Under the pieces are notes generated by a model. The model saw only the letters and a list, made by a program, of their open reading frames with translations. It was not told the DNA's origin and did not search any database. The position numbers and the translations under genes are program-made. Source: Membranipora membranacea (taxonomy: Eukaryota > Bryozoa > Gymnolaemata > Cheilostomatida > Membraniporidae). Taken from it: a DNA stretch of 64,000 nt. The stretch is from the NCBI GenBank assembly GCA_914767715.1, contig OU612072.1:21824001-21888000 (forward strand), in the 5' to 3' direction. This document shows, one piece after another, positions 30,301-62,414 of this stretch. The number at the start of each line of letters is the position of its first letter. The first letter of the stretch is position 1.

Positions 30301-33300
30301 TCTGGAACGCTACTCTGGCTGAGAAAGCTGGGTTCAAGCGTGTATTACCTGCCTCTGAATATTACAAGTGAGCTTAGCAGACTAATTAAAGCTATAGTAG
30401 CGCCTCCCCATTTTTAGTATCGTATAGAAGGTCTCAGTGTAATTGAGAGCACTGTGGCAACCTTTTAAATAGCCTCCGACACAGATGAAACCAGTAGGTT
30501 AACTAAAAAAATTTTCCCCTTTTTTCTCAACCACTTAGGTTGTCCCCTCTTTATTGCTCTTTAGGATTAAAATAGTCTAAAATGCTCAAAATTTAAGATC
30601 ATGGTCCCCTGAAGTCAGGGAAAATATTTGAAAGATATGATAATTGGCTTTTGATTCGCCTAGCTTGTTTACCCAAGTCAACATCACAATCTCAAAAGCG
30701 CTACTGTAACTTAAATGATGGTCCAAGCAACCCTTCCCCCTACAGACTGTTAAATATCCCAGTCTAAGGGTTTGTGGTAAAATCTAAAGAATGTGTTGCT
30801 CCTCTGCACCCTTGTGTAAAAGACCATTGGTTTGATCAATTTAAGTTCTGCGTGGGTTGCAGGCGATATGTTTGCCTGCCTTGACAAGCTTTGTCGTAGG
30901 GGAATCACCCACCCCCACATACCAAACGATATAAGTAATCCCTACGGCCTTGCACCTTGGAGCAAACATGCAAGGCACGTGGGAGCACACATATTGCTAG
31001 CATGTCTTCACAGCCAACCCCACATACCGAACGAAGCTTGTCATGACAAGCTAGCAATATTATGTGCTCCAATGAGTCTAGCTTGTTTACTCCAACGTGC
31101 TAGGTCTGATGGGATTACTTATATCATCCTAAGGTAGATTTTGTGATGTAACCAAACCTCTTGGAAAATTGACGACCAACTAAACAATTTTTAATATTAC
31201 CTCAGCCAATGCAAAGTTAGCCCAATCATGTGATACTTATCCATACTATGGCAAACATATGATGCACTATTAAGATCACAATGGATCAGAGTGACACCGA
31301 TATTACAATATTGGGTCTCTCTGATCGAGTCAATTTAGTCTGCGTGCCATATGTGTTCCCACCCCTAAATCTAGAAAATGACTTTAGGAAATCACACCTG
31401 AATCCTCTTGATGGTACCCGAGCTACTTGAATTTACTCATGCTCTGAGAGATAGACCAAACAAGTAGCCTTAGTGATTTGATTTGTCTCCCAAAATTGAA
31501 GAAGAGTACTCATCAGATGCTAAGGCTATAACTGTCCTTACATGTAAGAGATACCCATGATGTACTTCTAGATTACTGATCACGGAGTATTCCTGCTCAA
31601 ACAGTATCAGTCTCTGTTAGTGGCATTCTTATTACTAACAACCACCCAATTTATGGTTGGTCATTGAAAGCCACTACAACCACCCTACAGTGGATTGAGT
31701 AAATTAAGTTTATGTAATTTTCATGAGAAATTAACCAGGACCCAGAGTCGTTGCACTGGGGGCGGTTATAGCCCCCCCCACCTCTCAGTCACTTTCACTG
31801 ACTGTTGCTTGTAGGAGGCGAGTATTGAATGAGTCACGAGGTATACATGAGATCGGTAGTATTAGCTGGGAGTTAGCTCTGTGTCTGCTCGGAGCCTGGG
31901 TGTTCGTCTTCTTCTCTTTATATAGAGGTGTTAAGTCGTCCGGTAAGGTGAGTCAAGGTGGGGGGTCTGTGTTAGGTCTCAATAATGTCCAAATAAGGTC
32001 AAAATAAGAAACAGGAAGGTAAGAAAGGTACAAATATCTCAATTATTCCAGTTAACAGGGTAGTTAGAGCATACACTTCGGGATGTGGCCCGTCATACGA
32101 ACGCCTGATTTTAAATCAACCTTTTTTTATCAATCATTTTTAATCGACCATGAGTATCCCACAATGCAATTATTCTGGATTGTCATTGAGGTCATATCTA
32201 AGATTGACCTTAATTCCAGGTAGAAATTGCATTGTGGGACCTTATTAAAACTTGGTTATGAGTTAAATATAATTATAGGGTGATGAAGCACTAGGCAAGC
32301 GACTGCTGTTTCTATATACTACAATTCAAGTAATTCAAACTTCATCAGATAATTTTATCCTTTGTTATTGAAATTGATAGAAAGCGTCAAAAGTAGATTT
32401 TAGATCCGCTCACAGAGTGGGGTAACTCCAAATTATTGGAAATAAAAATAACTGGCGAATGAGAAAATTCTTGGCACTTGGCTGTTTCTTCTCTTGTTTA
32501 AGAGGATATTTTGATTTTATAATTAACTATTATGGGAATGATTTAACCAAGCAGGCAGTATAGGAAATGTATGCAGTGTGATGCAAAGTTCAACTTTCAA
32601 ACATCTCGTCCCTTGGGAATGTTCTTAAGAGTGTTTTTCATATTTGATAGCTGAATCACAATGCAATTAATATTCCCTTATTTCTACTCTCACATAACAT
32701 CCCTTATTATGGTGACAGGTACACGACCCGTCATCCTTTTACAATCTCAGTTTAATATTACCTTTGCAGCAGGACCACATGACTTTACTGTAACCCTTTA
32801 TTGCTATCATTGTACCATATTCAATTATGGTCCTTTCACGAAAGGCCGCAAACAAGTCTCCCACAATGCAATGCCATATTTGGTCCAACTGTTATGACCA
32901 GACCATAACTGGTGCCAGCCTTAAAAATGGGGCGTTGAAAACAAGAGGCACCCCCAGGTAGTATGATTTTTCAACCTTTGGGTAGAGGGAGAGTGGTAAA
33001 AGGCTGAATCAAACTTATTTCCCATAATAATAATAATCTTAGAGACTCATTATGGTGAAGTAAAGATAGAGATTCGATCATAGTTCATCAGTCCGTGATC
33101 AGAGTGTCATCTGTATATAAATAATGGACATATTGCTCAATAGTAGACGGCACAGAGATTTATAAAAAATATGAGTTTGTGTGTGACAGATAATCATGAT
33201 CTAGTGAATATTGTAATGATATTTTGTCGTTGTGTTTCCATTTCATAAGCAATTAACCAGGGTCGTAGAGCTACTGTATTAGGGATCTATACGAGGGCCC

Positions 33301-36300
33301 AACTGCCAGAATTAATTAACAGTCTTGGTTTTTCAAGCTAATCAGAAGTTTTCACTTTATGAGCAATGAACCAGGGTCCTAGAGCTACTGTACTGGGGGT
33401 GGTACTAGCACCCGCTTTCAGAATCATTTAACCAGTGTTGGTTCTCAGGCTAATCATAAATCAATAGGACACGAGTTTGAATTAAGAACGACCAGGAAAT
33501 TACATGGTAATGGAAATTTTGCTCAATCGATGATCGTGTCAACACTGAGACCTGTTTAGCTTATTTTGAATCTTGCATATCACCTTACAGTGTTTTGATC
33601 TTTATTAAACATTGATTTTAAATCCTTTTAAAATTTTAATTGAAAATTTGTTCAGTCTATTTTAATGACTATTTCAAACCAAGACCTGTTCTTGCGAAAA
33701 TTGTTCGATGGAAAAGACTTGCTATATTCAGAAATGATAGTATACCCAAAGAGACATAAAAATTTTCCTGATGGCTGATACTAAGTTTATTTTCGTATTA
33801 CAACATGGAAGCACTGCGCAATCCAACCGATTTAACCGAATCCATGAATAAAATGGAAGCAAACTTTTGACACAATTATACTCTGACTCGCTGCCCATGA
33901 ATTAATTATGAAATTTAATTCATTGAACTTAATAAAAATAAATTTAGTGGAAGGGAATAAAGATCTCTGCCTACAGTGTAACATATTTCACCCCTTTGCA
34001 CTGAGTACTTTCTGAATAAAAGCTTTATGATTAATATACCCTTATAGGCTAGTCGGAGCTGCAGTTAGCAGAAAGCTACAATCATCAGTAGGTAGCTTTC
34101 TCCATTTCACACAGGTTTGACTCCTGATGTTGTTGGTCAGATCATCCCTTTGCGTAAACTCAAATCACAGCTGCTAGTATTAAGTAACTAAAAACTACTG
34201 GATTAGCCAAAATCTAGCTTATTTTTACTAAGTTCTAGCGAACTGTTATGGAAACAGGCAAAGTTTTTGGTCTCCTTCTAAACTAGTTGAGCAAAAGTCT
34301 TACTATGACTTTCTATGGTCAGCTTACACTTTCTCAAACTCATCACTTTGTATAAACTCACATCTCAGCTAGCTAATAATATTAAGTCTCTCTAATCTAG
34401 CCAAACTAAACTCTAGCTAATTTTTATTCAATTTGATGAGTGTATATACAAAGTTCTAGCAATTTGTTATGAAAGCAGGCCAAGTTTTTGGTCTCATCAG
34501 GTCTGTGGGGATTTCCAGTATCAGTACACAAGCTCTTACAAACTCTGTAAACAAGTTGAAATCTTGTTTTCTTGTTAAGCCTGATCCGCATTTGTTCAAA
34601 GCTAGTTATCAGGTTAACGAGTGCACATATATAACATCATTACAGAATGCTGCCTATAAATATGCACCAGCCTTTAATCAGATTGTACCTTCTTAACTCC
34701 CGAACGCATCAAATGAGTGAACAGACAGGACGCAGCCCAAGCAGCCCAGAAAGCATCATGGCGATAATAACTAGGATGTCGTAATGCCTATATTTATATG
34801 ATATTAATCATCTATTAATATCACTGATGCAGCTCAGAGTAAAAAGTCAATCTCTAGTGCATACCATAGAGTTATCCCTATGGTGCATATGCCCGTCTAC
34901 TTTATTTGTTTTTGTATAACAAAACAAAAAAGAAGCCGGTTGACAAAGCTACATACTATCACCAATAATAATATAGGGGGGGGGGTTGGGGCCCTTGTCT
35001 TATCTCGCAACAATACACTATCGATGTTAAAATCAGACCAAGAGATTACACTCAAAAAGTACAAATGTATAAATAACTACGAAAAAACTATTTTGAATTA
35101 AATTTGAATGACTTTTATCGGTAAGATATTATTGTGGTGTTCAGTGAACCCTGGATTCTATTCAACAATTATGTGGAGGACTGAGAGTCAATTTTCTATT
35201 AAATCCGGAAGACAAAAGTCCTGATCGGTTTTATTTTGTGAATCAATTATTGATAACTACTCTAAAAAGTGTTGCAATGATTTAGATAAACTTAGAGCAG
35301 TTTGTTTGTGGCCCTGGTCCAAAGGCGCATATGATAACTCTACTCTTGTTAATTGTGTTTTATATTGTTTAGGTTTAAGTTTAGCGACTCATTTGACGGC
35401 CACTTATATTATTCAGTTGAGATGAGAGAGGTTCTAAGATCTAGATATTCAAATATACCCGAAGTAGAAAAGAACTCGGCAACAGAGTTGTTGACTTGAG
35501 ACTTCTTTCAACATTTCTTCATTAGTGCCTGAGAAAGTTATTTGATTGTGTTCCCCTGATCAATTGTCCAAGGTCAAAACATCCTTCCCTCTATTAACAC
35601 CGAAATGAATGAGGCTAAATAAATTCCCTGGTAATTCCCTCGAAATTCGGCTGGATGCAATAAAGTATTAATTGACACCAAAATTAATTTAATCGTGAAG
35701 AATTGAGTTGGGATGTGTAATAAAAGTGATTTATTGCATAGACTATGTAATAGAACTTCAGGGAAAGCACATTCAGGTATTACCACAATGTCATCACAAG
35801 GCAAAACAATACCCACAATTCTCTTCAGCGCTACCTTGCTCACGTTAACACAAATCAATCAATCGAGAGACAATAATCAAAACTCATTTGACCGTCCTCC
35901 GACGACTTAAAAGTCTTGATGGAATTGCTAGTTGCTGTGCATTGATGTTGTCGGCGCAAATAACATATTAGAATTGAACTTTTAAATGCTGTGATTCCAC
36001 GAATAAGTCAAATATATGCAGCAACTCAGTGCAAGTTTTGTCAAACAGATAATATGAAATTGGCCATCTGAAATGACGGTAAAAACTTCATAATTGACTG
36101 ATAAACTTTGAGAAAAATCTGTATCTGCATTTAAGAAAAAAATGTTGGACTTTTGTTGAGCATTATGTGTCGCACCCTGTTATAAAGCACCAGATTCCGC
36201 TTGATTTTCTCCCAACCAGGGAGCTTCTCATCGTGGTGCTGCTGCTCGTCAGTACAAGCTCAACCATTCGCTGCTTCATTAAACTGTTTCTATATTTAGT

Positions 36301-39300
36301 TCTCATTTCCTCTAGGCGTTTGCTGAGGACTGGGTCCTTCCTCGATTGTCTTTTAATTTGAATGTTTTTGGTGTTATCTCCCTTTGCTCCTACTTCACTG
36401 TCTTTTATTGTGTGAGGGCTCGGTTGTTTCCCGGGTCTTGTTATAGCTGCTGGTTTGTCAGTGTGTTGGGGCGGAATGGTTGTGTGCGCTGTTATCATGG
36501 CAGAGGCTATGAATGTTAAACCGATCGCTGCCAATAGGAAGAGAAAACATCTGGGTTTGGGACGAAAACCAAACAACATATCTTTATCCTGAAAACAAAA
36601 AAATATAAAATCACATACAATAATCTGTAGCAAAACCAATTACAAGACCTGATTAATCTTGGTTTGTGAGAGGCAGGGTAGCAGCATATCGCTGGAGTCT
36701 TTGACAATTATGTGGTCACCTGTATTTCTGGATTAATATCACAGTTTGCGTCTCCTGCACAGATGATGTTCCTCAACAGTCAGTTTTCCTCGTTGTAGGG
36801 CCCAATAAAATTTAACTTCGATTGGACTAGCTTATGCCAAAGGAGCCTTGAAATTTGACCAACTGAGATTTAACACCATATCCAGCAGAGATCTGGGAAT
36901 GTTACTTTTATCACTGTCAATCAATCAAGCAAAATTATGTTATGTTATGATATGTCTTACAAACTACCCAGCAAATTAATATTGGTGGATCTGAAATGAA
37001 AGTTGTTCCAAGATACCCTATCTGCAAATCGCCTCAAAGTCAGTGAAGACAACATTGTCTAACGCTCACTTTCGAACCCTCTTTTAAAATCTGGAATGAA
37101 TTTATCAGATGAATCAAATTTCTGCCATTAAAACTTAAGTTTACTGGAAACACAAACTAAAACCATAAATAAGTTGTGACCAAAAACATAGAAGCCGGTG
37201 ATTCATGTTGTGGACAGAGTGATAACTTACCTTTATAGAAGCCTGTAGTCCCAGAAAGCTCTCCCTGACATGTAATAGTCCCTCGCCGTCACTCTTCTGC
37301 TGTGACCTAACAATATCTATTCTATGTCCTGTCGGGCTGATATGCAGATTGGAAGTGGTCACTATGTGTCCATGTGCTGCACTGCATATAAACACTAGTG
37401 ATATAGTTCTCTTAGAGTTTTAACGAGGTCTTGGTCTTTTCACACAAAAATTATTACTAGCGATTCTGCTGGCAAATGACTGGATCATCTATCCTCTTTC
37501 TCTCTTTTTTATTTTGACATTTAGCGGCGTGGATGTCTTTTTAATGCAGGAGACAATCAGGTCCGTTGCTGTGTCCTAGAGCTAGCATGCGCACATATCC
37601 TTTCGCCAAAATTTGAAAGGAACATCTGAAGCGATGATCCTTGTATTTATATGGGTATTTTATGTTCCATGTGCTTATCAATATTATATTGATTGATTTT
37701 AATGTGAGCAGCGCATCGTAAATATTTTATTCAGCAATTAATCTGTAAAATTAAAAGATGAATATAGAGGGAAGGATTGGCCAATTACAATCAGCATTAC
37801 AAAATTAACCCATGTCTGTAAAGTGCATACCATAAGTTCTTTGAAATCCAAAGGTTACTTGGCCATTGATGACCACCCGAGCCTTTGGATTTCTGTGGTA
37901 AAATGATCTGGGTCTACACCTCTAGGGTATACTGAGATAGGGTTGAAACTGATGGTATTTTTGGATATCATGGCCAGCTTACTAAATGAACAGTGAGGGT
38001 ACAACACGACATCTTGTTACAGTTGATTGTCTGTTAATATATCATCATAATCACTGTTGGACCCGAGAGAAAATTGATGCAAAGAGTGTGATGGATGGAA
38101 TTGAATATTTGACCACGATAAAATCAGAAACTCAAAACGGCTTAGGTGCCGAAGCCAATATTGTCATCATTGTAAAATTAGCAATTTTTGTGTCCTTTTA
38201 TCAGATATGGATATTATTCGGAATCCATCTATAGCGTTGTGTAAATATTTTTCGAACAAGAATAGAATTATTAATTGATTTTGTCAGCTTCAGTTTCAGG
38301 GTCAGCAGTCTGATTTGTTGGTTTTCCGCTTCAGTAAACAAATATTTCCTGCGGTTTCCTTAATCCAGATAATACAGGAAAACTAACGCCGGACTGTATC
38401 ATCAGCTATCAGGGCCGTAGTTAAAGAAAAACAATAGGGGAGGCAGCAATTCTTAAGGGTGTGGGGTAACACCAGGTTGGGTATTGTAAGCTCCTCCTGT
38501 GTCCCCAGTCCCGTGCCTCCAAAGCTTCTTAATGATATATATAGCAGATGGAAGTCCTAAATGAGCTGATTCTGACATGGAATTTCAATCATAACATTTT
38601 TAGGACACTCTATTCAGCATTCTAGGGGAGGTAGAGCGCCCCTGCATCCCCTAGAACTATGGGCTGTAGCATCAGGTTATATCATCATCTCGCTTTGTGT
38701 CAGTAACTTGAGTCAAGTGTACTTAGTTCCAGTGCGAGATATGAAATCATATCTAATTTATTTTGGCATCGTGTGGGCCGATAAGAATTTTTTATCAACA
38801 AACCTTTCCAATCTGTGTTCTAAGCGTTTGTATCAAAAGGCTTTTATATTTGATAGGGGCCGGGAAATAATCGGGGAAGAAACGAGTCAAAACATAGGTA
38901 TTAGATTGTCCATCAGAAAGGGTTTTGGCGCTGGTATACATTACTCGCACATCTCAGAAGTCTCTGAAACAAAGTAAACAACATGATTAGCATCAATATA
39001 TAGTTTGCAGACCCATGATGCCCTAATTTCTTAACCAAAAGGCATGTTTTGGGAGGAGGGGGGGGATGAGATATTGCTGCGCACTTCCAGCTATTTTGCT
39101 GATCAGATTTTGAGAGGGCATGGAAAGTAAAATTCCTGCTGCATAACTTAGCTGTGTCCAATCAATAAGTATTAAAGGGTGCACAATAATATTTCAAGTT
39201 GGAGTAATCTCCCCTTAAATGGTGAGAGGACAACTCAGACACATCTCACCTTGAGAAGCGTAACTGCATACAGCTGGTAGTATTGGAGTTAATGAGATTG

Positions 39301-42300
39301 CTAATAGTAAAATGTTTAGCTGGCCTGCGCTGAAAAAACCAGGGATAATACTTGGGTAGCTTATCTCACTTATCACTTGCCGCATCAACCGAGATTTGTA
39401 GCTATCATTTTGAGATTGCGTCCATCAATTCCCGACCCCTTAACGCAGTCAAGACATTGTTACTCCCAACAATTATTAGCAGGGACTTATTCTTTTAAAT
39501 GATGTAATATCACTTTTAGCCCGTTACTATTTTTGTTTCTTCAGGTGGTGTATTTCACAGCCTTATTCCCATATTTGGTGCTTGTTATTCTGTTCTTCCG
39601 CGGAATCACTCTTCCGGGTGCCTCAAGAGGGATCTGGTTTTACATCACACCACAATGGCACAAGCTGTCAGACGCTATGGTGGGTTTTACTTACACTGTG
39701 TGAAGTTACTTGATTCAATTATGATTTTGATGACCCCAACTTGCTTGTGCAGAATGAAAAATACAGACAACCGGAATTTAAAGACCCGGAACTATACCCC
39801 AATGATTGAAATGAAGGTGCTTAGAATAATTTTCTCTATGTCACTTAGTAGCAGGTGATTCCAATGTTAATGAAAAATAGACATCTCACATCCCCTGGAA
39901 GACATTCGACCTGGCCCATATCCAGTAAGATTTTCGAACTACCAGAAAAGCAGAGTTCCCTTTTTCGATGGAAGGCAGCGCCACCATCTATGTGCCGCAG
40001 AGATAAGACTAAGTCATAAGGCTATCCTGCAGGCAGAATGGTTGTCCCGTCTGACAAACATATTTTCATTTACTCTAGGTTTGGCGAGATGCAGCGGGTC
40101 AGATATTCTTCTCGCTGTCTGTCTGTTGGGGAGGATTGGTCGCTCTGTCCAGCTATAACAGATTCAGGAACAACTGTCTAAAGTACGTCAACAGTGTCCA
40201 ATAGTCTTGTTATGATAATGAGCGTACCTCTCCTATAAGCCTATGTGGGCATTAGGAGTCTGTAGACCTATCCCATATATAAGGCACTTTGTCCTTCGGA
40301 ACAGATTTGTTTGTTCTATTGTATGTCCAGTTGAGAAAGTTCTAGGAATGTTTAGGAAACATGCTCCAAACAGAAGTTGTACATGGTTTTAGAATCACTG
40401 AAGACTGAACATGTCAAGGATATTTGATCAGGATGAAATTTTGTAGGATCACTAAATACCAATGCAGTTTCCCTTTCGTATCAATACACTGACATAAATA
40501 GGCAGCGCATGTGGCTATCATTACACTCATTGTTTTGAGAAATTTCAAAAAACATTTAAACACACCTGAAGTCCAAAGGAGCAAAGTCTCATACATTTAT
40601 GTGGTATTCCATGTGCTGTCATATCTGTTGCTTTATTTTGTAAAGTTGGAAGTCAAATCTCTATCAAACTCCTGTAGTCACTCTTTAACATAGTACAATT
40701 ACGATTACAGAGATACGTACATAGTGGCGTTAGGAAACTGCGGAACATCGATATTTGCTGGATTTGTGATCTATTCGTATATCGGTAATCTGGCACATAC
40801 AATGAATGTCAAGGTCGAGGATGTCTCTCAAGACGGTGAGTCAGATCTTGTGATTGGGCAATTGCATACGAAAAAACGGTTATTGCTGTATTGCTGGCAA
40901 TAGTTAAGTGTGAAAAACCTCTCTCCTTCGGCAAAACTGCACTTGAGAGACAGTAACTTATCTGGAATGTGAGAGGTGGCATGTGAGAGCTTTACATTGT
41001 GGTAAAGAATTATTGTTACTGAGACTACAATTCCAGTGGTACTTTTGTACAGTGAGTAAGTGGAGCTCAGCTCCTCTTGGTTATAAACACCCTTCTTGAA
41101 GTGGAGCTGAGCTCCACTTCAATTTTTTTTATTCCCTTGATAAGCAGGGCTCTCAGCCTGGGAGGATTCGAAACCTGAGTTTTGATATTAGCATGTCGCA
41201 TAGTGGTATTTTAAAGGTGTAAAACGCCCTGAGCATAAACAGCACAATAACGTTACTCTCGGTCAATCTTGATACTTTGATTGAAAAGTAACAAACAATC
41301 AAACGAAGTCAATGCCCCTCCGGAAGATATCCAACCATTAAATATAGAGGAGCATTATGGGGCAGAGATAGTTTTTTTCGGCACCTTGTACATATACTTT
41401 AAATGATCATTTGTTTTAAACAATCCAACAGAGCTCTGAATTTCTTCCAACTTTTGTTCATGTCTAATTTTAAGGCCAGTATGTACATGCAACATGTACT
41501 TTTGTCTGTGATATGTAATAAATCAATCAACCAGCCAAAACCACTGATGTCACTAGGTGAAAGGTCAGAGCCCATCGACTCTGAGTATGCTCTTAAAACA
41601 AGCGATACAGCATAGTCGGTTCTGATCGTTTGAGACAAAACTTCTCGTGTTGTACAGTGAAACGAAGCACAGCGTTACAAAGTAATAAACAATGCATCGC
41701 TTAGTAATTATCGATTCCTCAGGTAAACATTTTTTGGATCACAACGACTAAATGGATTGCAGTTTCATACTTGTCAATAATAAAGCTTTGCTCTTAGTTC
41801 TCAAATGACTGAAATTGGACCTTGGTTATATATATTGATCAAATACTTTGGTGGCACTTAGCCCTGTTCACACGGCCACGGGTTTTGTTTTTTTTGGTTT
41901 TTTGGATGGCCATGTACTTCTCGGTATAGTTTCAGTAGTTGTCTTCTGCTGTTTTAGCTCTAAACTTCAGCACTTTGAGCTTTGACTTTTTCCCTGTTCC
42001 ATTGACAGATTGCACTAAATATTGTAGTAATAATGTGAAAACCTGGCTAAGTTTAAAAAAATTTAGTATTAGTATTACCATGACCTTGACCTTGATCATG
42101 GTCATACTCACGATGTTTTAAATTTTCTTTAGCTTAGCCATTTTCACATTATTATCAGCTCCTCTTGGTTACAAACACCCTTCTTGAAGTGGAGCTGAGC
42201 TCAACCTCAATTTTGTTTATTCCCTGGATAAGCAGGGCTCTCAGCCTGGGAGGATTCGAAACCTGAGTTTTGATATTAGCATGTCGCATAATGGTATTTT

Positions 42301-45300
42301 AAAGGTGTAAAACTCTCTTGGGATCTCTGGGATCATTGTTTGATCATTAATTTAGAAATGACTTGATTAGGCAGTGCAGTGAGAGTATAATTACAGTGAG
42401 TGCAGTGAGAGGTATTATTAGTATAGGCAGTGCAGTATTATTTACATAGCTTATCACAACTAGAATCTAATACTGGATCATTCATTAATAATATGGCATA
42501 AATTATTGTAAGGCAACATTTAGCATTGTTTATATATTATTCATCTCTGCCAACGAGCAAAACCTGAGTTTTTAGCTTACATTCTAAAATCCCCTGAGTA
42601 GCCTGAGTTGAACCCAAAAATCTGAGTAACTCGGGCTAAACCTGAGTGGTTGAGAGCCCTGTCGAAAACAATGGGGAGTAGACTGTTCTCATGCTGGAGC
42701 CATACTTATAGATGGTAAATACATTAATATTTGAGTGTTGGCTATGTGTTGTCAGTCCAGAAAAGTTTTCTGAAAATAAAAGCAGAAGCATCTACAACCA
42801 ATTATATCTGTTGCTGGGAAATTGGGGATATCTGGCTCCCTCTGGCATACCTATCAAAGACAGGTGATGTCGGAGGATATTGGCTAACAATAAAGCTGCC
42901 CATTGGCAACCTCTACAGAAGGTTGCTGGCTAAACCTTGCCGGCTGGGAGGATTGATTGATGAATTAAAAAAAATAAATAAGTAAGAGCTCCACTTCATT
43001 ATCCCTTACAAAAGTACCACTGTACAATTCTGTAATAACATGGTGATGGTGTGTTTGGTTTTACTCCCCCTCATCAAAAATCGCTTGACAGTATGATCCC
43101 TAACTTATTCAATATTATTTTTGCTTTTGTATTGTGTTTTCTGTTATATTGCCATCCATTCAATCCACTATTAATATCGTATATATAATCGATGATGCAA
43201 TAAGTTATCTCCCCTATGTGTTATATCCTCAAAGAGTGGACAACTCACACAAAGCAAGATGAGCAAAACCATAAAAATATCTTTTTCGAAAAATTACGCG
43301 AATATTACGAGCTGCATTAGCAATTCAAATTTGCCATAATTCATTATTTTACAACACTGTCTTGATGAACAGAGGCGCTAGATTTGCCTCTGGAAGGTTT
43401 GAATTCTACAGGTTCGAGAGTCCCAAACCTATGATAGTTTAGTTATCTCTGGCCAGCCTTGTTTCAGAAACAAAACTAACCATAATTCAAATACTTGATT
43501 TAATTAGCATAAATCAAAATAGTTGCCACCAACAACAATATTTACAAACACAATATAATTTGACCCTATTTTATTTGCAGGTGCCGGTCTAGCCTTTGTC
43601 ATCTATCCCATGGCGGTACTCAACTTCCCTGGATCGCCCTTCTGGGCATTTCTGTTTTTCTTTATGCTGCTAACACTGGGACTGGATACTCAGTTTGCCT
43701 TGATTGAGACGGTCTGTACGACTATATTCGATGCTTTCCCCAACCTCATCGCTAAGAAGATGTGGGTCACTCTGGCGCTTTGTGTAGCTTTCTACTTCCC
43801 AGGTATGATGGAACAAGTAGGATTTTTATATTATAAAATATTCCACGCAAAAGGCAGTAATTTTTTTGTCATTTGCAGCCAAGCATAGTTTGGTCTGGAC
43901 TGTTGCGGGATAAAACAAATTATATTTTGTTGATAGGGTTTGTAAAATAATGATCAGTTGAAACAATACATTTTCTAGGGAATGAAGGCCAAATTCTTTT
44001 TTTTTCAAACTACCAATAATCTTACCAACAAAGATTGTGATTATGTGAGGTAAAATATCCATTTTTAATGATTGGAACAACAATTACAGAAGCATTGTGG
44101 GTAAATGTATATTCCTCTGTGAAAGATATCAAATCTGGAATGAATCATGGTAAATGCGTGTACCATTACACAGCTATTATGTTCATCAACGTTTTGTGGA
44201 TTTGAAGTTGTGACCCTCCTGTCACATGATCATTTTCTGTCTTCCTATTTGTCCTCAAGCTTTTGCCGTAATTTATTTAACACAATATGAATAACATCCG
44301 ACTATAAATATTGTATAATAATTGTTCTCAGGTTTGATATACGTGACACAAGGAGGTAACTACATACTAAAGATGGTGGACAGTTACGCTTCTGGCTGGA
44401 ACGTTATAATCATCTGTCTCACTGAAACTACTGTAATCTCATATCTGTACGGCTACGATCGATTCGCTAAGGTTGGTATGGTTTGTAGTAGACAAAGTTT
44501 GGTCCATTTGCCTGCATTCCGAGTCGCTTTTTCTCCAGTGGGCACGCCGCATGACCAATGGAAGGGGGGGCAAACTGGAATGCAGGCAAATTAAATCAAA
44601 CTTGTTTTAGGTTTGTAGACATAGAACTTCTTACTTCTACTGTTGAAATCACCTATATCATCACTGTAGTATATTTTTTTTACAATCGATTGGCAAAGTT
44701 TTGTATGGTTTGTAATAGACTAAGTTAGGTTCATTTGCCTGCATTAAAAGTTGCTACCCCTCCACTGTTAACGCCACGCACCAGTGGAGGAGGAGCAACT
44801 GGAATACAGGCAAATTTGATGAAATTAGTTTTAGTTTTGTAGACGTAGCACAATTCTAAGAGCTACCTGTGAAATCACCTCTATATCATCACTTAATTAA
44901 ATTAAATTAAATTGATCTCGGTGGGAATCGAACCCACAACCTTCAAATAACATCTAACCACCTAGAAGTCTGACGCGCTATCCATTGCGCCACGAGGCCA
45001 GTTAATTTATCATAAAAGGGGGTGTTATCGGTCCGAGGAGCCCAAACTATGACAATATACAATGGTCCCTAATTATTGGACTGGGAAGGTTTACCCCTCA
45101 ATTATCTTGCGTTGCTAAGACATCTAGAGCTAAATACTTGCAGTGTGCAATAACCTTACTATAAACTCACCAAACTTATAAGTGAATTGGTTTTTTTTCA
45201 CACATAGGTTCTCTCATATTTACAAGTCATAATATAGAGACATAATCTCAGTGATCAATCTATACACTTACAAGTCACTATCTATGGCAAAAAGGAAAAT

Positions 45301-48300
45301 AATGATACTTATCAAAGCTGTGTCTTCTTTTATTGTTTAATTAGTCACCTTCATTTATAAGTTTGGTGACTTAATAATGAGGTTTCTACGGTATTAATCT
45401 CTCTTTGAAACCTTGTCCAATAGGGAAGAAGATAGACAGAGAAGCCTCTCAAGCTCACTCAAATCTCTTCAATGTTTTTAATTATGTGTCCACAGTATCT
45501 CACAATAATCATTTTTAAGGCCTTGCTGGGTGGGTGTGGCTTCATAGGCTAAACACACCCCCTTGTGACAACATTGCTAAGTGAGTGACCAATGAGCCAT
45601 GATGATGATGATGATGTGTTTATTTGTCTCATCAATTAGAGAAATAAAATGCTTCATGTGAGTGCTCTCTTGTTAAAAGTATGGACGGTAAAAATAAATG
45701 GATAAAAATTCATATAAAAAGTTTACTTTTTTGAAAAAACGCTATTTAGATAGTGAGCACAGTAAGCTCTAAAACAAAGTTTGCGAAGGTTTACTCTGTA
45801 CCGGATGGTGGAATATCGGCCTGATGGGCACTGAGTAAATGTCAACATGGGAGTTTGTTCGGTTGCCACCATGCGAAGACTCTTTGTAGCGAGTTTGTTG
45901 TGGTAGAGATCGGCTACTGCGGTGAAGGTGATATCTCCTGCGAGGCGACCGGCTGAGCGCACCACTCGCTGTAGATGTTTTTTAGAGTCTGCACTAAGAT
46001 GAGAATATATCACTACTAGATGATAGAGTAGGATGCTTTCGATGAAGGGTTTGTAGCATGATGTAATCAATCTGGTATCTATTCCCAGATGATACAGCTT
46101 GCTCATAATGTGAAGTCGAGTTCTAGCTTTCTTTACAGTTCGGTTGGCAGAGGCTTTAAAGTCAAGTTTAGTAGTTAGCGTAGTACCAAGATACACGAAC
46201 TCCGTTACTTGATCGATCGGGGAACCATTTATTACCAGCTGTTGTGTGGTCCGGTTATCCCGTGCATTGCTGAAAACCAGTGCTTTGGTCTTCTTTGAGT
46301 TAAGAAGCAGGTCATGTTCGCAGCACCAAGCATATAGATGATCTTGTTGTTGGAGACACGATGGCTGGGTACTCGTGAGAAACTCTAGTATGACTGTGTC
46401 ATCAGCATATTTGAGGATTTCGGTATTGGAGTTGAGTGTTGGCATACTGGATACATAGAATGAGAAAAGTAGCGGACTGAGCACACAGCCTTGAGGGCTC
46501 CCAGTAGATGTTGTCGTAGATGCTGATACATTGGACGTTGTTAAAACACGTTGTGTGCGATTTGTGAGGAAACTGAAAGCCAGTTAAGAATATTCGGATG
46601 AATATCATAATCACAGAGTCTGGAGATTAGCAGGGACGGATTTATAGTATTAAAGGCGCTGGTGTAGTCAATGAATAGTGTTCGAACATAGTTTTTAGCA
46701 TTATTGTCTAGATGGAGACTTACTGAGTCAATAAGAGTGATGAGTGCATCTTCAGTCGACCGATTCTGCTGATATGCGAACTGTGATGAGTCATCGAGAT
46801 GTGGGCCTATGCGCCTCACTATCAGCTTCTCCATACACTTTGCTACGACTGATGTCAAAGCTATGGGCCGGAAGTCTTTCGGTTCTGATGCACCGGACAG
46901 TTTTGGTAAAGGCTTGATAGTGGCTGCTTTCCATGCTGATGGCATAGTACCTTGCTTCACTGACATATTGAATAATGCCAGCAGCGGTTCGGTGAGCGAG
47001 GATGCAGCTGTCTTCAGCAATCGTGCAGTCAGATGGTCTGGTCCAGGGCTCTTATTCGACTGCGCACTACCAATGAGTAAGGAGTAATGACCAATTAAAT
47101 ACGCTCTATTGTACCAACTGGCCAATGACCCCAAACCCTTTCCCCCTTGGCACGTGGCGCATTATCCCCCAGCTTAAGTCTAACGCGCTATCCATTGCGC
47201 CACTAGGCCAGATATTTATAGGAAAAAGGGGACTTTTTCGGGCAGCACAGTCCAAAACAGACCCAAAATTAACTCCCTGTAATAACATACCACCAATCTC
47301 AAACATACAATTATCTCACTTATCACCATGCATGAAATTTTATTAGGCTGTTGATTATGAATGCTTTGGCCTGAGACGAACTCCATCCGATCCCAGTAAC
47401 TAACATACATTGGTAGCTCCTATTTTTGAAGATTGAAATGGCAATATGTCACAGTCTTCTTTATCTCTAGAAAGTTCAAGCTAATTTCCTGTTTACGAAT
47501 CTCAACATGAAATGTTGCAAATGACCATATAAATAAGATATAAAAATTATAAAATATAAGATGCTCACCGTTGACATCGTTGCTATCATTATTATCGTTT
47601 TTATCAACATCGATCGCTAACAAAACTGACATCATCATGATGAGGATCAATGTTGTCATAAATATCTTCATTATTGTCATTGCTATTGCCATCACTACTG
47701 GGATCATCATGACCACTATTACCATCATAATCTTCAATATTGATATCACCATCACCGCAATCAATATCATCATTGTCACCATCGTCATCATTGTCAACAT
47801 TGACACTATCAGTATTCACATCATTATTAACATAATGACCGCTATTGTGTCTTTCAATCATTCTAATAATACATTACCTTCCTTTACAGGATGTTCAGGT
47901 TATGATTGGCAGGAAGCCGCCATTATTCTGGAAGTTTTGCATTATGGGTATTAGTCAAGTCATAATATCCGTAAGTAACTTATAAAATCTTCCTTAGCAT
48001 GTCCTAGTCCCGATAATATAGCCTGGACTGTGTGTGTATAATAGTGACTATGTATAAGAGAAAATAAAAGACTCCACCCCCAATATTCACACATGAACTC
48101 ATGCTAACTTTGACATTAACTTTGTTAAAACAAAACTGTTTCTGCCTCATTTTTTTTGATTAGTTGAGATTCAATGAATACTTTAGTTTTTGAACTGTAA
48201 ACATTCTGCATACCTTGGTAATTTTTAAAGAGTGTGTAAACTCCAGCTTATCTACCTAAATATTGATCCGTGTGCAGCTGTGCAATTAAACTATTTTGCC

Positions 48301-51539: not shown

Positions 51540-51936
51540 CCTGAGATAGTCATTCACTTTCTTTGCAAAGGAACTCATAACAGGTGAGTAAACTTGGGCT
51601 GCTGATATAGAATAGCCTGATTATTATATTATAAAGACAAAACTCCGTGATAGATATGATGAGAATATCTTAGATATTTTTGACATTTTATCGCAGTGTT
51701 CCCTTTGAGTTCTTTCTCCATAGTGATCTTTTTTCAGTCCTTTTGAATGCAGGATAACTCAGGATAACAAATAAGTTTTTAACCTGACTTGCAGTTTACT
51801 GATCAATTCAGTCAATCTTAGTTCCTTTGTTCATAAAAATCTCCCATCAGAAACGTTCTTGTGACTTCTGAATGCTTTTATTTAATTTCCCTTTACCTTG
51901 ATTACCACCGGTTTTTTCCTGATGTTTGTAGAAATC

Positions 51937-52353
51937 ATGCAGATCATCGCTCTCCTTGCTGTTCTTATTGCTGCTGTGGCTGCCTGGCCAGGATCCTACA
52001 GCGGATCCTACGGAAAGGGATACGGTGAGGTTTCTCCCTAGCAGATTCAAAATTAAAATTGAAAAACTCTTTACCAGAACATCACCCAATACCTTCTCAT
52101 GTTATTGGTGTATAATAAAACAGGTTTTACAAATAGAGCTTTTGAATTAAAATATAATACCTAGTAATGTGCATCTACATGTTTTAAAAATTCAATCCAA
52201 CTTTTTTGTTCAGAAAATGCAGAGTTCCAAGAACGTTATTGATAAAAAAAGACAGTGAAAATTTTCAATCGTTTCATTCAAGATTGATCCGGATACGGAA
52301 ATGGATACAGACGCGGATCCTACGGAGGATACAGCCGTGGATACAAGTGGTAG
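51937..52353 (+). pseudogene. Gly/Tyr-rich secreted peptide, copy C, with an in-frame TGA
   Basis: The promoter, 5'UTR exon, signal-peptide exon (51937-52024, donor GTGAGG), the 3'UTR donor CTG|GTATGT at 52398, the 3'UTR exon from 52643 and AATAAA at 52776-52781 are all as in copies A and B. The signal-peptide exon differs from copy A at four positions, all synonymous. The last coding exon has the Gly/Tyr frame SGYGNGYRRGSYGGYSRGY-KW to TAG at 52351, but the only good acceptor (TTCAAG, 52277-52282) places TGA (52285-52287) one codon into it. No AG lies between that TGA and the repeat. So the mature part is lost, or this haplotype carries a nonsense change, or the base is a sequencing error. 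The repeat part is also shorter (21 against 45 codons). Confidence 0.6.
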
Positions 52354-55700: not shown

Positions 55701-56729
55701 TAAATGTGTGTCTTATCTCGACAACAGATTGAAGCATCTACTGATTTGTTAATAGCAGGTCATTCAAAACGATGTGATGTCTGACCAGTTGGGCAAGAAA
55801 ACATTCATATCGATCTGAAATAATCAATAACTAAACGACAACCTTTCTCTAGGTAGCTGGTGGTTCATATACTTGGTAATAAAAAATCAAATAAAATCTA
55901 TAAGCCTACATAATAGCAGTAAATTAGATATGTAAACATGTGAGCAGACAAAAGGTAGACCATTTATATATGGTTGTTAGCCAGCCGGTAACACTACTAA
56001 TTACTTTATATATATATATATATATATATATCAATCAGCACTGCAAAGTCAGTTCCATTAGGGTCAATAGTAATACTTCTTATGGTCCTGGAGATCCCTT
56101 GAAATACCTGACTTGTCTTGGGTGTCTAATGGTTGTCTGATTTCTGCACGACGAAATTAAGATCCCCACGACTATTTCGGCCTGTGAAAAAAAAATAAAT
56201 TGAATAACTATATTACCAATGTTTGATTAAGCCTTGCGATTTAAAAAAAAAATTAATCAAACCTAACATCTCTTGATAACCGTATTATTAAATGTTTGAC
56301 ACATTATAAGACTTGTATGCTTTTTCTGTGGTTGCAAAAGTGTAATGCTCTAATCGCTTGGTAGTTCCAAAATGAAAAAAATACTTGACTAAGTAATTTA
56401 CGTATGGCCGGGACATGATACCACACTCTTTCTGTATCATAAAGTTTTGAATAATGTAAACAAACATGCCGCATTATTCGATTATACACCGAAATATCAA
56501 CCCCAACTGGAGTGATACATAACCTTCTATTGCTTGACCTTGATGCAAGTGGCATAACCAGCAGGACCGAAAAGGACAGTATCACTTCAGTGAAAATCAC
56601 ATAGATGTATCAAGATACAAGTTTTTAGTGTACTAAGTTTCATGAATTAGCTTTAGGTTTTGGTCACCCACAAAGCGCTACTTAAGCTCACAATGGAAAG
56701 CTGATGCCATCCTTGTAACTTGGCATCGA
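52800..56729. other. Intergenic region
   Basis: No gene is supported. The block at about 53850-53912 (GTATGAGGATTAGGGC, TAGGGGCAGCCCAATCTTCT) matches 6058-6119 in duplication unit B. A (TA)n microsatellite is at 56007-56031. The remainder shows nothing recognisable. Confidence 0.5.
56007..56031. repeat. (TA)n microsatellite
   Basis: About 25 bp of uninterrupted TA in intergenic DNA. Confidence 0.95.
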
Positions 56730-56801: not shown

Positions 56802-59800
56802 TTATTTATAAACTTCTACAAACATTGAAGAACCTGACTGACCTTGAAACACCACCTCACTCTTAGCAGGATTCGGTGATACAGGATTGACCAGCTCATC
56901 TGGATGAGTAGTTCTCATATTAACTCCTGGTGATAGATAGAGCTTCCTATCATTAGTGAATGTACTGATGGTGACAGGTAGCTGACGTTCAGGTCTTCCT
57001 TCAGCAGGTGCCGAGTTTCTCACAACTGATTGGATCTAAACAATAAGGAAAATTAAACTGATTGACTGGTTCAGATTAATATCAGGCATTAGACACCAGC
57101 AGCAGGGAGTCTTGCTGACACTCCCTTGTCCTTTTCTTCAAATGGTAATATTTTGGTTATTTCGATAAGTTCAAAGAGAGGAGCATGATTGGTATTGACG
57201 ATATGTCTTATGTCAAAGATTGAAATACTTTACAAAATAGAGCAAGTGTTTGTCAAAAATGTATTAGACACCGGCAGGAATCAGTCTATCTGAAATCCCC
57301 TTGCCCTGGTTTTTCCATGATTTAATTATTTTTGATCTGGTTCAAAAAGAGGATCAAGATGGTTATCCTAAATTTGAGACCATGCCTTATCTCGACGACG
57401 GAAAAACTTTACAATCAGATATAACCTCAGAATATAAAGTAAGCGTTAGTTGAAGATTAAATTCAATGTATTGACATGTTTATCTTTTGTAAAGCTATCA
57501 ATATGAGAGTGTATAATCTGTTTTGTATATCACTGTAAATTTAATGACCTTTGAAAAACATGAGCAGCTGATTTTTTTACCATATTACTTTACATTGAAG
57601 TGTAAATCAAATTATTCTAGTGAGTCAAATCAAGTGAGTCAAATTTTGTCGATGAGTCATCAGAGTTTGGTGAAGCACTTACCAGTTTACTGAGTTCTTC
57701 GACATGTTTACTTCCGGCCTGTTGATAGAATGTTGCTACGAAAGCTCTGATGAACACTGAACCGTATTTTTGACCTCTGAAGGCTTTATACTCTGGGCAA
57801 AGGGTAAAAGAGCAAGGATAAAAACATTTGATGAAAATGCTGATTCGATATAATTGGCCTAAAATGAATGGATGAAACTTTTCAAAAATTTCTCAATAAC
57901 TATTATAGGGGAAACGGCTTGCTTATTTATAGTAGGAATTTCATCCTTCCCTTTAAATAAAGGGTATGCTATGCACTTAGGTATGTGCTCACCTTTGGGG
58001 TGTTTGAGTTTATGTTTATTAGGAAACACCTGATATCACACAAAAATCAGCCACGCAAATAAACAGTTTATTCCTGTAATTTATATGGGCAGTGAAAAAT
58101 TAGGCATTGATATCACTATGGTTTTTCTGTTGAATGCAATAATTAGCTAATCGCTGCATGAATAGCGTTCAATGTCTTCTCACCTAGGAAACTTGGGTGG
58201 AGGACAATCAGGTCATCCATACATAAGTGGCTATCTTCTCTCGGTATATCTCTAGGATTGGTAGGAACAGGATCAGCTGCCATGTCCTGAGGTTGTTGTA
58301 CTGAAAATGGGGAAAAATAGTTAGTGAGCAACTATTTAAGAATAGGAAGAATAGAACAATTTAGATTAATTGCACAATTTCTCTGTCGACAAAACAAACA
58401 TCTGGCAAGAAGAGACATCTGAACTTAAGAGAGTGTGAGAACCAGAACCCATTCTGGATAGCAAGAGGGCAGAGCTGTTGGAGGGTTCTAAACATATAGT
58501 CTATAGATGGATAGATAGATAGATGGGTCCATAGGTTTCAACGATGAGATTTATGATGAATTAAATATCTCAAAAAATAGCTACTGACACAGGAGGTCAA
58601 ACCACTCCCACCACTTCCTAAAAAGAACCACGCAGATATTTTCATTCCCAGTGGTATATAAGATCGTTGATAAGATGTTTATCGTAATCCTTGATTCATC
58701 AGATGTAACATGACGATGAAAAAATTCTTACGTCTCAAGACCACAAACAGCTCAAAAAGTTTGCCAAATCTGGATTTTTGTTCACTTATATATCAAGTTA
58801 ACAAAGATTTGCCTATGCAGGTTTTTAATTGAAGTTTTTTTATATAGTGAGTTGATCTCTTACATCTTCTGCTCTGGGTTGCTGATCCTTCACTCAGTGT
58901 AACAATAGGGTCCACTTTCATGATATTAGCTGAAGGGAGTAGAGTGAGCATATACAAATCATATTAATATGTAATATGGTGGCTGTGCATGCACAAGAAG
59001 ATTATATTGCAAATGCATTTTGCGTTTGAAAAAGGGATTTTTATGGTTCAGTATTTGATAAGAGAAATAATCTAAGGATGCATCTGATTTTCAAAACAAG
59101 TGACTGTTCATTACATAGTTGTACAAAAAAAAACATAAGAATACGACCTCCTGAACATGATTGTAGTATAATCATCTTTGGTTTTCCTCTCATAGCTGGA
59201 AAGTTCTGAGTTGAGAGAAGTCTGTAGATATCCACCAATCTGATTGTCTCGTTACCAACAGAGATGGTACCACTTTCTCCATGACTCATCAGCACCAGTA
59301 CAAACATTCCTAGATTAGCATGTACTGAAGTACCTGTCCTTCTATCCACATACTGAGTCTCATTATGGATTTTCATTATCAGATCCTTCAAAAAAAATCC
59401 AGTAAAATTTAATCGGAACTGACATTGATCATCAGGTGTTTTGCAAATTTCAGCAATCGTATGATTTTCAATGGCATAACCATAAAAGAATGTCTAACAA
59501 GAGAGGCTCAAAGCCTGAAATAGGAGAGCCTTAATACAAGCAATGGTATAAGTACCTCTGCATGCAATTCTTTGTCTTCAGACAAATCACTTATGACAAA
59601 ACCGAATCGCTTTAACATCCTCTTTATGTTAGCATAGTCATATTGTGATCCTTCTCGATCTGTTTTATTGTTGATTATAAGAGCTCTTCCTCGTGTAGCA
59701 GTCATCACATAAACCTGCAAGTAAAGGTAACAGATTGATAACTGCAACTTATGTTACTACCACTAGATTTTGAAATAACACATTCATTGTATACAACTGA

Positions 59801-62414
59801 TCACTCTAGGCGTGGTAAAGGCAAGTGCACATAAACATATCTGCAGTCTTATTGAGACACTTAAATTGACGTCAATCTTGAGAAGAACGGTAGGTTTGAT
59901 CCTATCTCAATCCTCATCAAAATCTTTGATATTTATACACCCCACATGAGTTAAAGGGACATATATCTTTAAAGGAAATTTTTCACCGCCAACAAATATT
60001 TTGTCAAAAAAAATGAGCTAGGTGTCAAAAACAAAACATTTCCTGCATCATACCATAATCATTTTCCTCATTTTGATAAATTTCTGGTATTTTCCTTGAA
60101 TTCTAGCGGCTAATTACCTTGTCCATTAGAGATGCTCTGTACAATGATGTTTGAAAGACAGGATGCATATCGATGTCCTTTTCTCTCTCAGAAACAATCT
60201 GTGTGATTGCTGTCACCTCATTCAGCCCCTTCTCATTGATATAGTCTGTGAGTAATCTGATCCCCTCCTCCCCTGGGTAAGTACCTAGAATACACACCAG
60301 GTCATTAATCACTACCTCTATTTTTTGTACCAGGATGACAAACTACTGCAGACAAGATAAGTACTGAGGATATGGCCAAACTATGTATTTCATCCATTAG
60401 TAAAGTGAGTGCTATAGTTATACACAGATATCCAAGGAAGATGAGCGTCGTTCAAATGAGGAAGCTGATGATGAACTCACATGGTACTCTGAGCAAAGCT
60501 GGTACATCCCTTTCATCGCCACATTCAGCAGTCTCTGTAGAGAGTCTTTGTGGATGAGCTGTTACCATCTGGAACTTTAACAGTGCTGGATTTGGCCTAC
60601 CAAGAATGAGGCAGTGGGGGCAAGGAATGTCATAATCTATCTTTGTGGCAGGCCATGTTGATTTTGCTTTCCCTGATAACACTTTGAGGAGGGTGGAGAA
60701 CTTTGCCCAACATTCAGATATAGTGGTTGCACATCCGTCTACTCTGATGATTGCCCTTTGCGCATATCTCTCATGTATGAAATGAACATTGAACTGCTCC
60801 CTCTTCTCATTGCCAGATCTGGTTGGTGCTTGCAACTTTGCAGCTGCTCCATTCCCATAGGGGAAAATTTGATAGCTTTCATCCATATTTTCGAGAAATG
60901 AAACTGTTAACTGATGAAATGCATAGTCAGGCGCTTTCAATCCGATAAAGTTCATTGATGCATATAGCTGAATCTCAGCTCTATGATGAAAAAATGAATG
61001 TTCAGGCATGAAGTATGGCATCAGGTAGCATTCATCCTGATTGTTGATAACGGTTGGGCCAAACAGAAGTTTGAATTCTACCAACAGCGCAATAGCGATT
61101 TCAGAAGGTATCTTGGAGGATAGGGTAGAAATGTGGGAATGAAGGTCAGCTTCGCTCATCATACCATTTCTTTGATAGCTGCTGGGTCCTGAAGTAACAT
61201 TTCCATCTGCTGATTGCTGTATGATGATATTAGGAATCATGGTGTGACCATACAATGATTCTATTAGCTCTGTTAGAACTGGTATTTTGTGGAACACAGT
61301 ATTTGCCAGACCAGGGTGAGGGGAATCTGGATACCACAATATCTGACCAGATCTCTTCATGAAGTCAAAAACAGTCCGAGGGTGCTTCAGAGAAGTAGAA
61401 ATCAGGTCATATTTGAGATAGCTGTCATTATTCACGGTGAAGGGAGAAAGCCAAATGCTGGGAATGGAGCGTTTTGAATCCTCTACTCTGTTGTAGAGGG
61501 TTCTCTCTAGCCTCTGGAATACCGTGGAATAGACTTTGTCATCTTGAGAAAAGCCTACTGAGAACACATTTTCCTGGCTGAACACAGATGAATGATGATC
61601 CCCGTCAGAACGAAATGCAAGCCTTTCTATTTGACCGTTTCCTTTTAGAAGCTCATCAGTCAAATCTTGAAGAGTGCGAGTGAAGTCACCAGCTATTTTT
61701 TCATACAGGTCTAATTTAGTTCTATATTCATCTTGGTGGGTGAGAACTACGAGGGGCTCTTGGATCTTTTGCACTGCTGTCCCAAGGTGTGCGAGCCAAT
61801 TAAAAGCGACTTCCCTTGTGGCTTCACGTGGTCCTCGCTTTTTGGCTATTTCTTCGAATTCTGACATATTCACCACGACTATTGGTATGCAGTCTTCACG
61901 CATTGTCAGGTGGTAGCCGTGATGGTACATTTCATCACCTCCAAAGTCAATAACCTCGACATCACTTTTCTCTGAATCAGGGCCTTGAATCTGTACCTTC
62001 TCGAAACCAAATACTTTTGTTTTTTCAACCCTTGCATCATGTGGACTTCGAGCTTTGAACTTGTGCTTCATGACACTTAGAAGAGAAGACTTCCCTGCCT
62101 CTTTTCTACCAATGAGGACAATAGGTGATAGAGAGATGACTTCTTTTCCACTTTCCATGTCTGTGTAGTAGTGTTTTATGTCGCTCCAACCTCCTTCACA
62201 CACAGCATAAGGTGGCTCTATTAGCTTGTTGCACTCCACACAGCCGAATTCAGAGAGATTCAGCGAATTAATACTTGAATGTAATCGGTTGAGGTCAGAG
62301 TTTCTATCAAGGTTCAGATATATTAGAGAGACTAGTTCACCGATCCATTCAGGTAACTGTTTGATGTTATTATTGTCCAACGTCAGCATTTGCAGTCTCC
62401 TCAAGGTTCTTATA
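56802..62414 (-). CDS. LRR-Roc-COR-caspase fusion protein (5' end not identified), at least 1,007 residues
   Basis: Eight minus-strand exons: 62414-60481, 60284-60118, 59714-59556, 59385-59148, 58929-58864, 58300-58184, 57792-57683, 57035-56802 (TAA). Phases match at every junction. Domain order: at least two leucine-rich repeats (LQMLTLDNNNIKQLPEWIGE); a Roc GTPase with P-loop GRKEAGKSS (about residue 100), DFGGDE and THQDE; a COR-like region to about 570; a CPHC motif; a linker; then a caspase. p20 starts TRGRALIINN, with catalytic His in LMSHGE and Cys in QSCSG. p10 has EYKAFRGQKYGSVF and RQLPVTISTF. The S1-pocket Arg positions in p20 and p10 are kept, so protease activity is plausible. 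The caspase exons have no in-frame ATG before their domain, which supports one gene. Upstream exons are unseen. Likely a cytosolic GTPase-gated protease in cell death or defence (inference). Confidence 0.88.

Follow-up and report, generated by a model that had tools for sequence, protein, structure and literature searches.

We analyzed a window of 64,000 nucleotides from the cheilostome bryozoan Membranipora membranacea (contig OU612072.1, positions 21,824,001 to 21,888,000 of the forward strand; all coordinates below refer to this stretch unless a contig is named). Its minus strand carries a gene in which leucine-rich repeats (LRRs), a Roc GTPase domain, a COR domain and a caspase are encoded in one open frame over at least eight exons, from 62414 down to 56843. 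All internal exon boundaries are GT-AG, as had been proposed, and phase-matched, and the joined protein, counted with an optional ninth exon, comprises 1012 amino acids. A preliminary description of this DNA had suggested a Roco protein (Roc-COR) fused to a caspase in a single frame, and this was confirmed by the phase-matched exons, by relatives in the bryozoan Watersipora subatra, by the paralogous locus L026 and by the genome-wide pairing of the two halves.

Gene structure and predicted domains

Exon 1 (60481..62414, minus strand like all exons of the gene) encodes the last LRRs (residues 1–60), the Roc GTPase (residues 98–189 by Pfam) with the P-loop GRKEAGKSS and the motifs DFGGD and THQD, and a COR part ending in P-C at a phase-1 donor. 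This donor, CCAT/GTGAGT (slash marking the exon end), was found at 60481 in the phase previously given and joins to 60284 across a junction intron (60285..60480) that has the proposed length of 196 bp and runs from GTGAGT to TTCTAG; its donor GTGAGTTC and acceptor TGTGTATTCTAG are common to the paralogues L012, L013, L014 and L026. If unspliced, the exon-1 frame reaches a stop ending at 60452, 29 bases into this intron. Exon 2 (60118..60284, 167 nt, beginning CTYPGEEGIRLLTDYINEKG) forms the linker between COR and caspase and carries two in-frame Met codons (DIDM and LMDK), so that, by sequence alone, a bare caspase might also be translated from within this exon. Upstream of it, in agreement with the preliminary description, no in-frame ATG is present from the last upstream stop to the linker exon (frame from 60342).

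Exons 3–8 (59714–56843) match the six caspase exons described before. Exon 3 (59556..59714) starts the large subunit (TRGRALIINN) and contains an S1 Arg in DREGS, and exon 4 (59148..59385) continues it with the catalytic His (SHGESG) and the catalytic Cys (QSCSG). Exon 5 (58864..58929), encoding intersubunit linker, is present in L026 and L013, and both exon 6 (58184..58300), comprising intersubunit linker and the small-subunit start (MDDLIVLHPSF), and exon 7 (57683..57792), belonging to the small subunit (YKAFRGQKYGSVFIRAF), are present in L026. Exon 8 (56843..57035) encodes the end of the small subunit (LPVTISTFTNDRKLYLSPG), and its first 169 nt are found in L026, where that locus stops. Two 3' ends are possible: exon 8 may continue in frame as far as a stop at 56802, or its donor at 56842 may join it to a candidate last exon with a stop codon (56126..56181, minus strand).

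At the other end, position 62414, formerly taken as the gene start, proved to be an internal acceptor, and the gene begins beyond the window. A 147-nt LRR exon, recognized by eye, is situated past the window edge at positions equivalent to 64891–64745 (5392–5246 in the fetched locus L019), is of phase 2 at both ends and joins exon 1 as ...DDLPSG/IRTLRRLQML.... Searches for upstream LRR exons of the window gene by regular expression and tblastn returned none, and a slightly changed LRR regular expression gave two such exons upstream of L027 and none upstream of L012, L013, L014, L026 and L029.

The proposed domain search with hidden Markov models bore out the two catalytic parts of the joined protein: Pfam reported Peptidase_C14 at residues 708–957 (E = 2.8e-26) and Roc with E = 4.2e-06 (27.4 bits against a cut-off of 27, and 28.5 bits for exon 1 alone). 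LRR_8 stayed under its cut-off (E = 5.7e-05), and COR was not reported by Pfam for the window protein and fell below the cut-off in the related proteins P0007, P0014, P0025 and P0026. A predicted model of exon 1, with a mean predicted local distance difference test score (pLDDT) of 78.3 and a predicted template modelling score (pTM) of 0.79, gave as best structural matches LRRK1 (8e05, E = 1.9e-23), LRRK2 and the C. tepidum Roco (6hlu and 3dpu listed), so that by fold alone a COR domain is predicted to follow Roc. The window protein also contains G1, G3 and the Roc-type THxD motif, which places it among the Roco proteins. Neither CARD, DED nor a death domain was found in the joined protein (Pfam, E 0.1; window exons only), and the LRR-Roc-COR part thus occupies the place of the prodomain, in agreement with the preliminary description. 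Likewise, the Pfam output for the joined protein contained neither NACHT nor NB-ARC, the domains expected of NOD-like receptors (NLRs).

By sequence, the closest solved relatives of the window caspase were ancestral caspase-6, CED-3 and caspase-8, all of them animal caspases. Evidence for the caspase fold comes from the W. subatra relative P0001, exon 1 being the part of the window sequence that was folded: the predicted P0001 model (mean pLDDT 79.0, pTM 0.63) matched Roco proteins and, separately, CED-3 and caspase-9, and because of its pTM the relative placing of the two halves is unreliable. Transfer of a bacterial caspase fusion is not favoured, as animal caspases are the closest solved relatives and the gene has introns; bacterial homologues were not looked for by name or in prokaryote genomes.

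Fused relatives in Watersipora subatra

A protein search with residues 560–1000 of the joined protein yielded two matches among 3292 candidates, namely P0001 from the cheilostome W. subatra (E = 8.1e-35) and P0002 from Patiria miniata, with the caspase as its sole strong Pfam match (E = 1.6e-8). P0001 aligns along the entire window protein with 32% identity, LRVPC-T of the window facing LRFPC-T at the junction; the remainder of the linker is weakly conserved. As this protein aligns to both halves including the junction, the fused frame is not due to chance. The Roc-COR part of P0001 used as query gave 19 matches including P0001 itself (best 7990 candidates scored), and its caspase part gave 12, again including P0001. 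Eleven of these 12 were W. subatra proteins with PF00656, all of which also align to the COR part, through to the junction end (P0001, P0006, P0011, P0013, P0017 and P0021–P0026, with P0011 and P0022 partial), so that the architecture looked for in other genomes recurs in 11 predicted proteins. Their gene models are spread over contigs of seven distinct sizes, and the NCBI names of W. subatra proteins with this layout include 'malignant fibrous histiocytoma-amplified sequence 1 homolog' and 'uncharacterized protein'. In three protein searches, limited by length and by words, W. subatra was the only source of full fusions. According to PMC12902671, the Ensembl annotation of W. subatra is based mainly on aligned transcripts; the proteins used here are the NCBI models.

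The searches also returned eleven related Roc-COR proteins of 661–748 aa on contigs of about 3 kb (P0005, P0007–P0010, P0012, P0014–P0016, P0019 and P0020). With ena and lgn as their sources, they are perhaps bryozoan DNA in other data sets.

Against the 11 fused caspases the window caspase scored 98–159 bits; with two animal caspases that are not fused, the scores were 71 and 60 bits. Trees of the Roc-COR and caspase halves of ten proteins (P0011 and P0022 left out; deep branches long and poorly supported) shared six of seven splits, against at most four in 2000 label shuffles, which points to a common history of the two halves between subfamilies.

We examined the active sites in an alignment of 12 proteins, the window protein and the 11 from W. 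subatra, in which we took the aligned His, Cys, Arg and Gln positions to be the catalytic and S1-pocket residues from the roles these have in caspases. The catalytic His and Cys were kept in 12 of 12 proteins, as were the first S1 Arg and the Gln of QxC, and the second S1 Arg was kept in nine of the 11 rows reaching the site, with Lys in P0006 and P0023. All three S1-pocket residues (two Arg and one Gln) are kept in the window protein by alignment, and the combination of catalytic His and Cys, p20 and p10 parts and an Asp-type S1 pocket would assign it to the C14A caspases. On the GTPase side, the full P-loop was present in nine of ten covering rows and THxD in 11 of 12, P0026 being the exception in both; G3 of P0001 reads DYAG. 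Since the GTPase and caspase residues are intact, the window protein is predicted to be able to bind GTP and to cleave after Asp. An acidic linker motif, S[DE]xSDx[DE], occurs in 10 of the 11 W. subatra members and is absent from the window protein.

A clustered family with a conserved junction and variable repeats

At 18 of 22 distinct M. membranacea loci, window included, the COR end reads P-C or P-S and is interrupted there by a phase-1 GT donor, the remaining four (L015–L018) forming one subclass with a different exon end. These numbers derive from a script run on 24 fetched loci, 20 of which were positive; the duplicates L011 (of L026) and L010 (of L029) were removed, and at L028 the script picked the wrong place, the correct P-C donor being visible on reading. 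The linker exon measures 167 nt and is gapless in L012, L013, L014 and L026, and exons 3 and 4 are likewise gapless, with indels in the introns. Locus L026 reads through 986 aa without a stop, and every internal splice boundary that it covers is kept. The ratio of nonsynonymous to synonymous substitution rates (dN/dS, method NG86) for this paralogue was 0.47 in exon 1 and 0.40 across exons 3–7. We rejected a pseudogene on the basis of the intact frame and the paralogue dN/dS below 1.

The M. membranacea assembly (339,339,785 bases on 18 contigs, labelled C1, C8 and so forth, with the window on C8) was searched with four Roc-COR queries, each scoring about 80 of more than 210 candidates, with the Pfam caspase (145 matches; 140 of 515 candidates scored) and with two further caspase queries, whose 150 matches each were added in full. 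All genome counts are hence lower bounds and refer to exons found regardless of introns, not to verified genes. At least 194 Roc-COR exons were located; they are spread over ten contigs and are mostly clustered, and two are fragments shorter than 1200 bases. Using the three caspase queries, a caspase lay on the same strand within 6 kb downstream of 187 of the 194 exons and in none of the other three orientations, whereas after random shifts of 8–60 kb the number paired averaged 8.0 and never exceeded 17 (500 repeats). The Pfam caspase matches alone paired with 107 of 194 within 6 kb and with none in another orientation (shifts: mean 3.2, maximum 9; 500 repeats). These sequence data point to a tandem-expanded family of about 190 Roc-COR/caspase pairs, a scale that, like the variability of its LRRs, was beyond the view of the preliminary description. 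Seen from the caspase side, a Roc-COR exon precedes 188 of the 323 merged caspase loci; the three queries gave at least 323 such caspase-like loci in this one animal genome, some genes maybe being counted twice.

The pairing bears directly on whether two neighbouring genes are present, a Roco gene terminated by the 60452 stop and, next to it, an independent caspase gene. Such an arrangement would account for the short read of exon 1 into the intron and for the Met codons of the linker exon, which finds no significant match of its own, and automatic models can merge neighbours, as may have happened in P0025, where fn3 repeats after the caspase could stem from a model running into the neighbouring gene. 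It is at odds with the phase-1 donor at the same place in 18 of 22 loci and a single subclass in the other four, with the fixed and gapless linker exon of four paralogues, with the occurrence of fused models in W. subatra on contigs of seven distinct sizes and with the uniform order and strand seen at 187 of the 194 Roc-COR exons. On the junction, the W. subatra models and the genome-wide order we rejected separate genes, which we regard as extremely improbable.

Roc-COR clusters without a Pfam caspase match were considered as possible carriers of other effectors. For the four loci sampled (L031–L034) this was rejected, as each holds a caspase missed by the profile. Three of these divergent caspases, termed type B (L031, L032 and L034), have QACQ instead of QACSG, and by eye the His and Cys are kept in all four. 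Their divergence would fit a family in which many copies act as decoys or regulators and the caspase domain serves for binding or dominant-negative control rather than proteolysis; with His and Cys kept in every one of the 12 aligned proteins as well as in L031–L034, we judge such a role distinctly unlikely.

Type-B caspases were also observed without Roc-COR, at L035 (C11:203500-208500), L036 (C8:14857000-14862500) and L037 (C3:24604500-24609000). In all three sampled loci a long upstream exon on the same strand shows ankyrin repeats by eye, which suggests a second family in the same genome with an ankyrin-caspase arrangement. Elsewhere, Roc-COR lies inside single open frames of 1634–2462 aa (C3:14198927, C1:30534705, C11:2958158 and C11:3049135), where a single very large exon seems to encode more of the protein, and the 9 kb of L025 (C10:14139000-14148000) contain a tandem pair of caspases and no Roc-COR match.

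Variation along exon 1 was assessed in eight copies of the C8 cluster (window, L012, L013, L014, L015, L016, L026 and L029). The pooled ratio of nonsynonymous to synonymous differences (pN/pS) was 1.44 for codons 1–60 (last LRRs), 0.41 for codons 61–262 (Roc) and 0.36 for codons 263–520 (COR), values that stem from one cluster with non-independent pairs and that gene conversion may distort. Exposed positions of the LxxLxLxxN strand face were variable at 13 of 15 sites compared with 12 of 49 others (Fisher p = 2.5e-5), the exposed set having been defined from the LRR consensus after the alignment was in view. Because of these post hoc positions, the non-independent pairs and the single cluster, the excess on the LRR face is indicative. 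An expanded family together with an excess on the ligand face, here found in one cluster only, is what a repertoire of LRR immune receptors would be expected to display at the sequence level.

Pairwise identities within this cluster further revealed a mosaic organization. In the first 1500 nt of exon 1, identity is 96.2% between L015 and L012 and 95.2% between L029 and the window. In the caspase exon, by contrast, L015 has 98.9% identity with L017 and 73.4% with L012, and L029 has 76.0% with the window. Between L029 and L015–L017, identity drops to about 65% over the final 350 nt of exon 1, which locates a breakpoint towards the end of COR. Thus, recombination or gene conversion has brought a single type of Roc-COR together with three or more types of caspase.

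Proposed function and comparison with known systems

Taken together, the gene probably encodes a single-chain receptor-protease consisting of an LRR sensor, a Roc-COR switch and a C14A caspase. In the mechanism that we propose, the tandem LRR exons would recognize something, and Roc-COR would act as a GTP-dependent switch and oligomerization platform. A ligand on the LRRs would change the state of Roc-COR and thereby bring caspase domains together, and Asp-specific cleavage would then result in death or inflammation of the cell, no CARD or DED adaptor being needed. The receptor would probably serve to ward off pathogens or to reject tissue of foreign colonies. Activation by proximity is the rule for initiator caspases. 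That Roc-COR dimerization would activate the caspase is a reasonable inference. Bacterial Roco proteins are dimers when nucleotide-free and monomers with GTP; if that cycle holds, GTP could be the off state here. The preliminary interpretation as a whole, with the Roc-COR dimer in the role of CARD or DED, is partly supported.

We consider the chances evenly poised for a wider proposal: that bryozoans carry at least about 190 germline genes per genome in which hypervariable LRRs, Roc-COR and caspase form one chain and lead from recognition of microbes or foreign tissue to adaptor-free death, that recombination reassorts the sensor and caspase halves, and that this design was reached independently of the bacterial Roco-effector and brown algal LRR-ROCO proteins. 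A real fusion might instead serve cell death under stress or in development, for example in polypide regression and brown-body formation. In favour of this, caspases are widely active in development; still, about 190 mostly clustered copies, variation on the LRR face and mosaic halves are hard to explain without recognition, and we hold a purely developmental or stress-related role to be unlikely.

Several observations weigh against a receptor-protease repertoire. The evidence for the fusion consists of genomic sequence and predicted proteins, and the best BLASTP match of the linker exon, to P0026, covers 23 residues at 39% identity with a non-significant E of 0.055. P-loop, G3 and G4 are degraded in P0026, and three W. 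subatra Roc-COR relatives (P0003, P0004 and P0018) have no caspase match, be their models truncated or complete. In M. membranacea, seven of the 194 Roc-COR exons have no caspase match within 6 kb; within 10 kb, 189 are paired and five remain without a match, and two upstream and one opposite-strand caspase neighbours appear. Within the C8 cluster the Roc-COR and caspase halves do not have a single shared history, and the limits given above for pN/pS and for the choice of exposed positions belong here as well.

Among known systems, bacterial proteins with LRRs, an AP-GTPase (Roc) and COR followed by a C-terminal caspase or other effectors have been published (PMC8195603), and the domain order itself is therefore not new to biology. 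In that source, caspase is one of at least 24 effector domains, and several paralogues occur per genome, 11 of them in one bacterium. The window gene resembles these conflict systems in the order LRR, GTPase, COR, effector; unlike these prokaryotic systems, it is an intron-rich, spliced animal gene with an animal-type caspase and far more copies. Brown algal LRR-ROCO proteins, which are candidate immune receptors, share the large ROCO repertoire, modular LRR exons and positively selected sites on the concave LRR face, but their LRR-ROC-COR part is without a protease, and the word 'caspase' is absent from the main text of the source (PMC11378527).

In animals, MFHAS1-like Roco proteins share the LRR-Roc-COR core, and several W. 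subatra members are named MFHAS1 homologues by NCBI; MFHAS1 itself, with LRRs followed by ROC-COR, is given as the simplest arrangement (PMC4104024). Aplysia has Roco proteins tied to TIR (PMC9334734), and a figure legend lists CARD and TIR for Trichoplax ROC-COR proteins (PMC4104024). These Aplysia and Trichoplax proteins are likewise joined to death or immune signalling domains, but to adaptor domains and not to the protease itself. In CARD and DED initiator caspases the caspase follows a presumed oligomerization platform, as in the window gene, whose platform is LRR-Roc-COR rather than CARD or DED. NLRs (NACHT or NB-ARC with LRRs) would follow the same expected logic of LRR sensor, NTPase switch and death output, whereas the window gene has a Roc-family GTPase and its effector in the same chain.

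The preliminary description knew of no animal caspase with this layout. Our searches of openly licensed papers turned up no animal Roco with a caspase attached, although the W. subatra proteins were already in NCBI. What appears to be new here is an animal Roco receptor-effector with an animal caspase at repertoire scale, the bacterial order being already known. Bryozoans are among the colonial animals for which PMC8195603 cites the rejection of foreign tissue, and the openly licensed papers searched gave no molecular candidates for it in bryozoans. The family size and the variable ligand faces make these genes concrete candidate receptors for bryozoan immunity or allorecognition, and the presence of sensor, GTP switch and caspase in one protein suggests a shortcut from recognition to cell death. 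If true, the family would also show a caspase working with no need of CARD or DED, would lend itself to the study of how an attached enzyme is controlled by a Roco GTPase, the family to which LRRK2 belongs, and would represent a convergence of animal, algal and bacterial defence designs.

Outside the fusion gene, the window contains frames on the minus strand at 45726–47161 that by eye resemble a reverse transcriptase of the long interspersed nuclear element type. Exons at 13263–17951 and 27809–43885, both on the plus strand, look by eye like those of an aldo-keto reductase and an SLC6-type transporter, respectively. Short frames at 4695–4964 and 9211–9558 (both minus strand) and at 51886–52041 (plus strand), some with a hydrophobic leader and a Gly/Tyr-rich tail as judged by eye, possibly encode small secreted peptides, and the stretch at about 51,850–52,030 resembles that at about 4,700–4,960 on the opposite strand.

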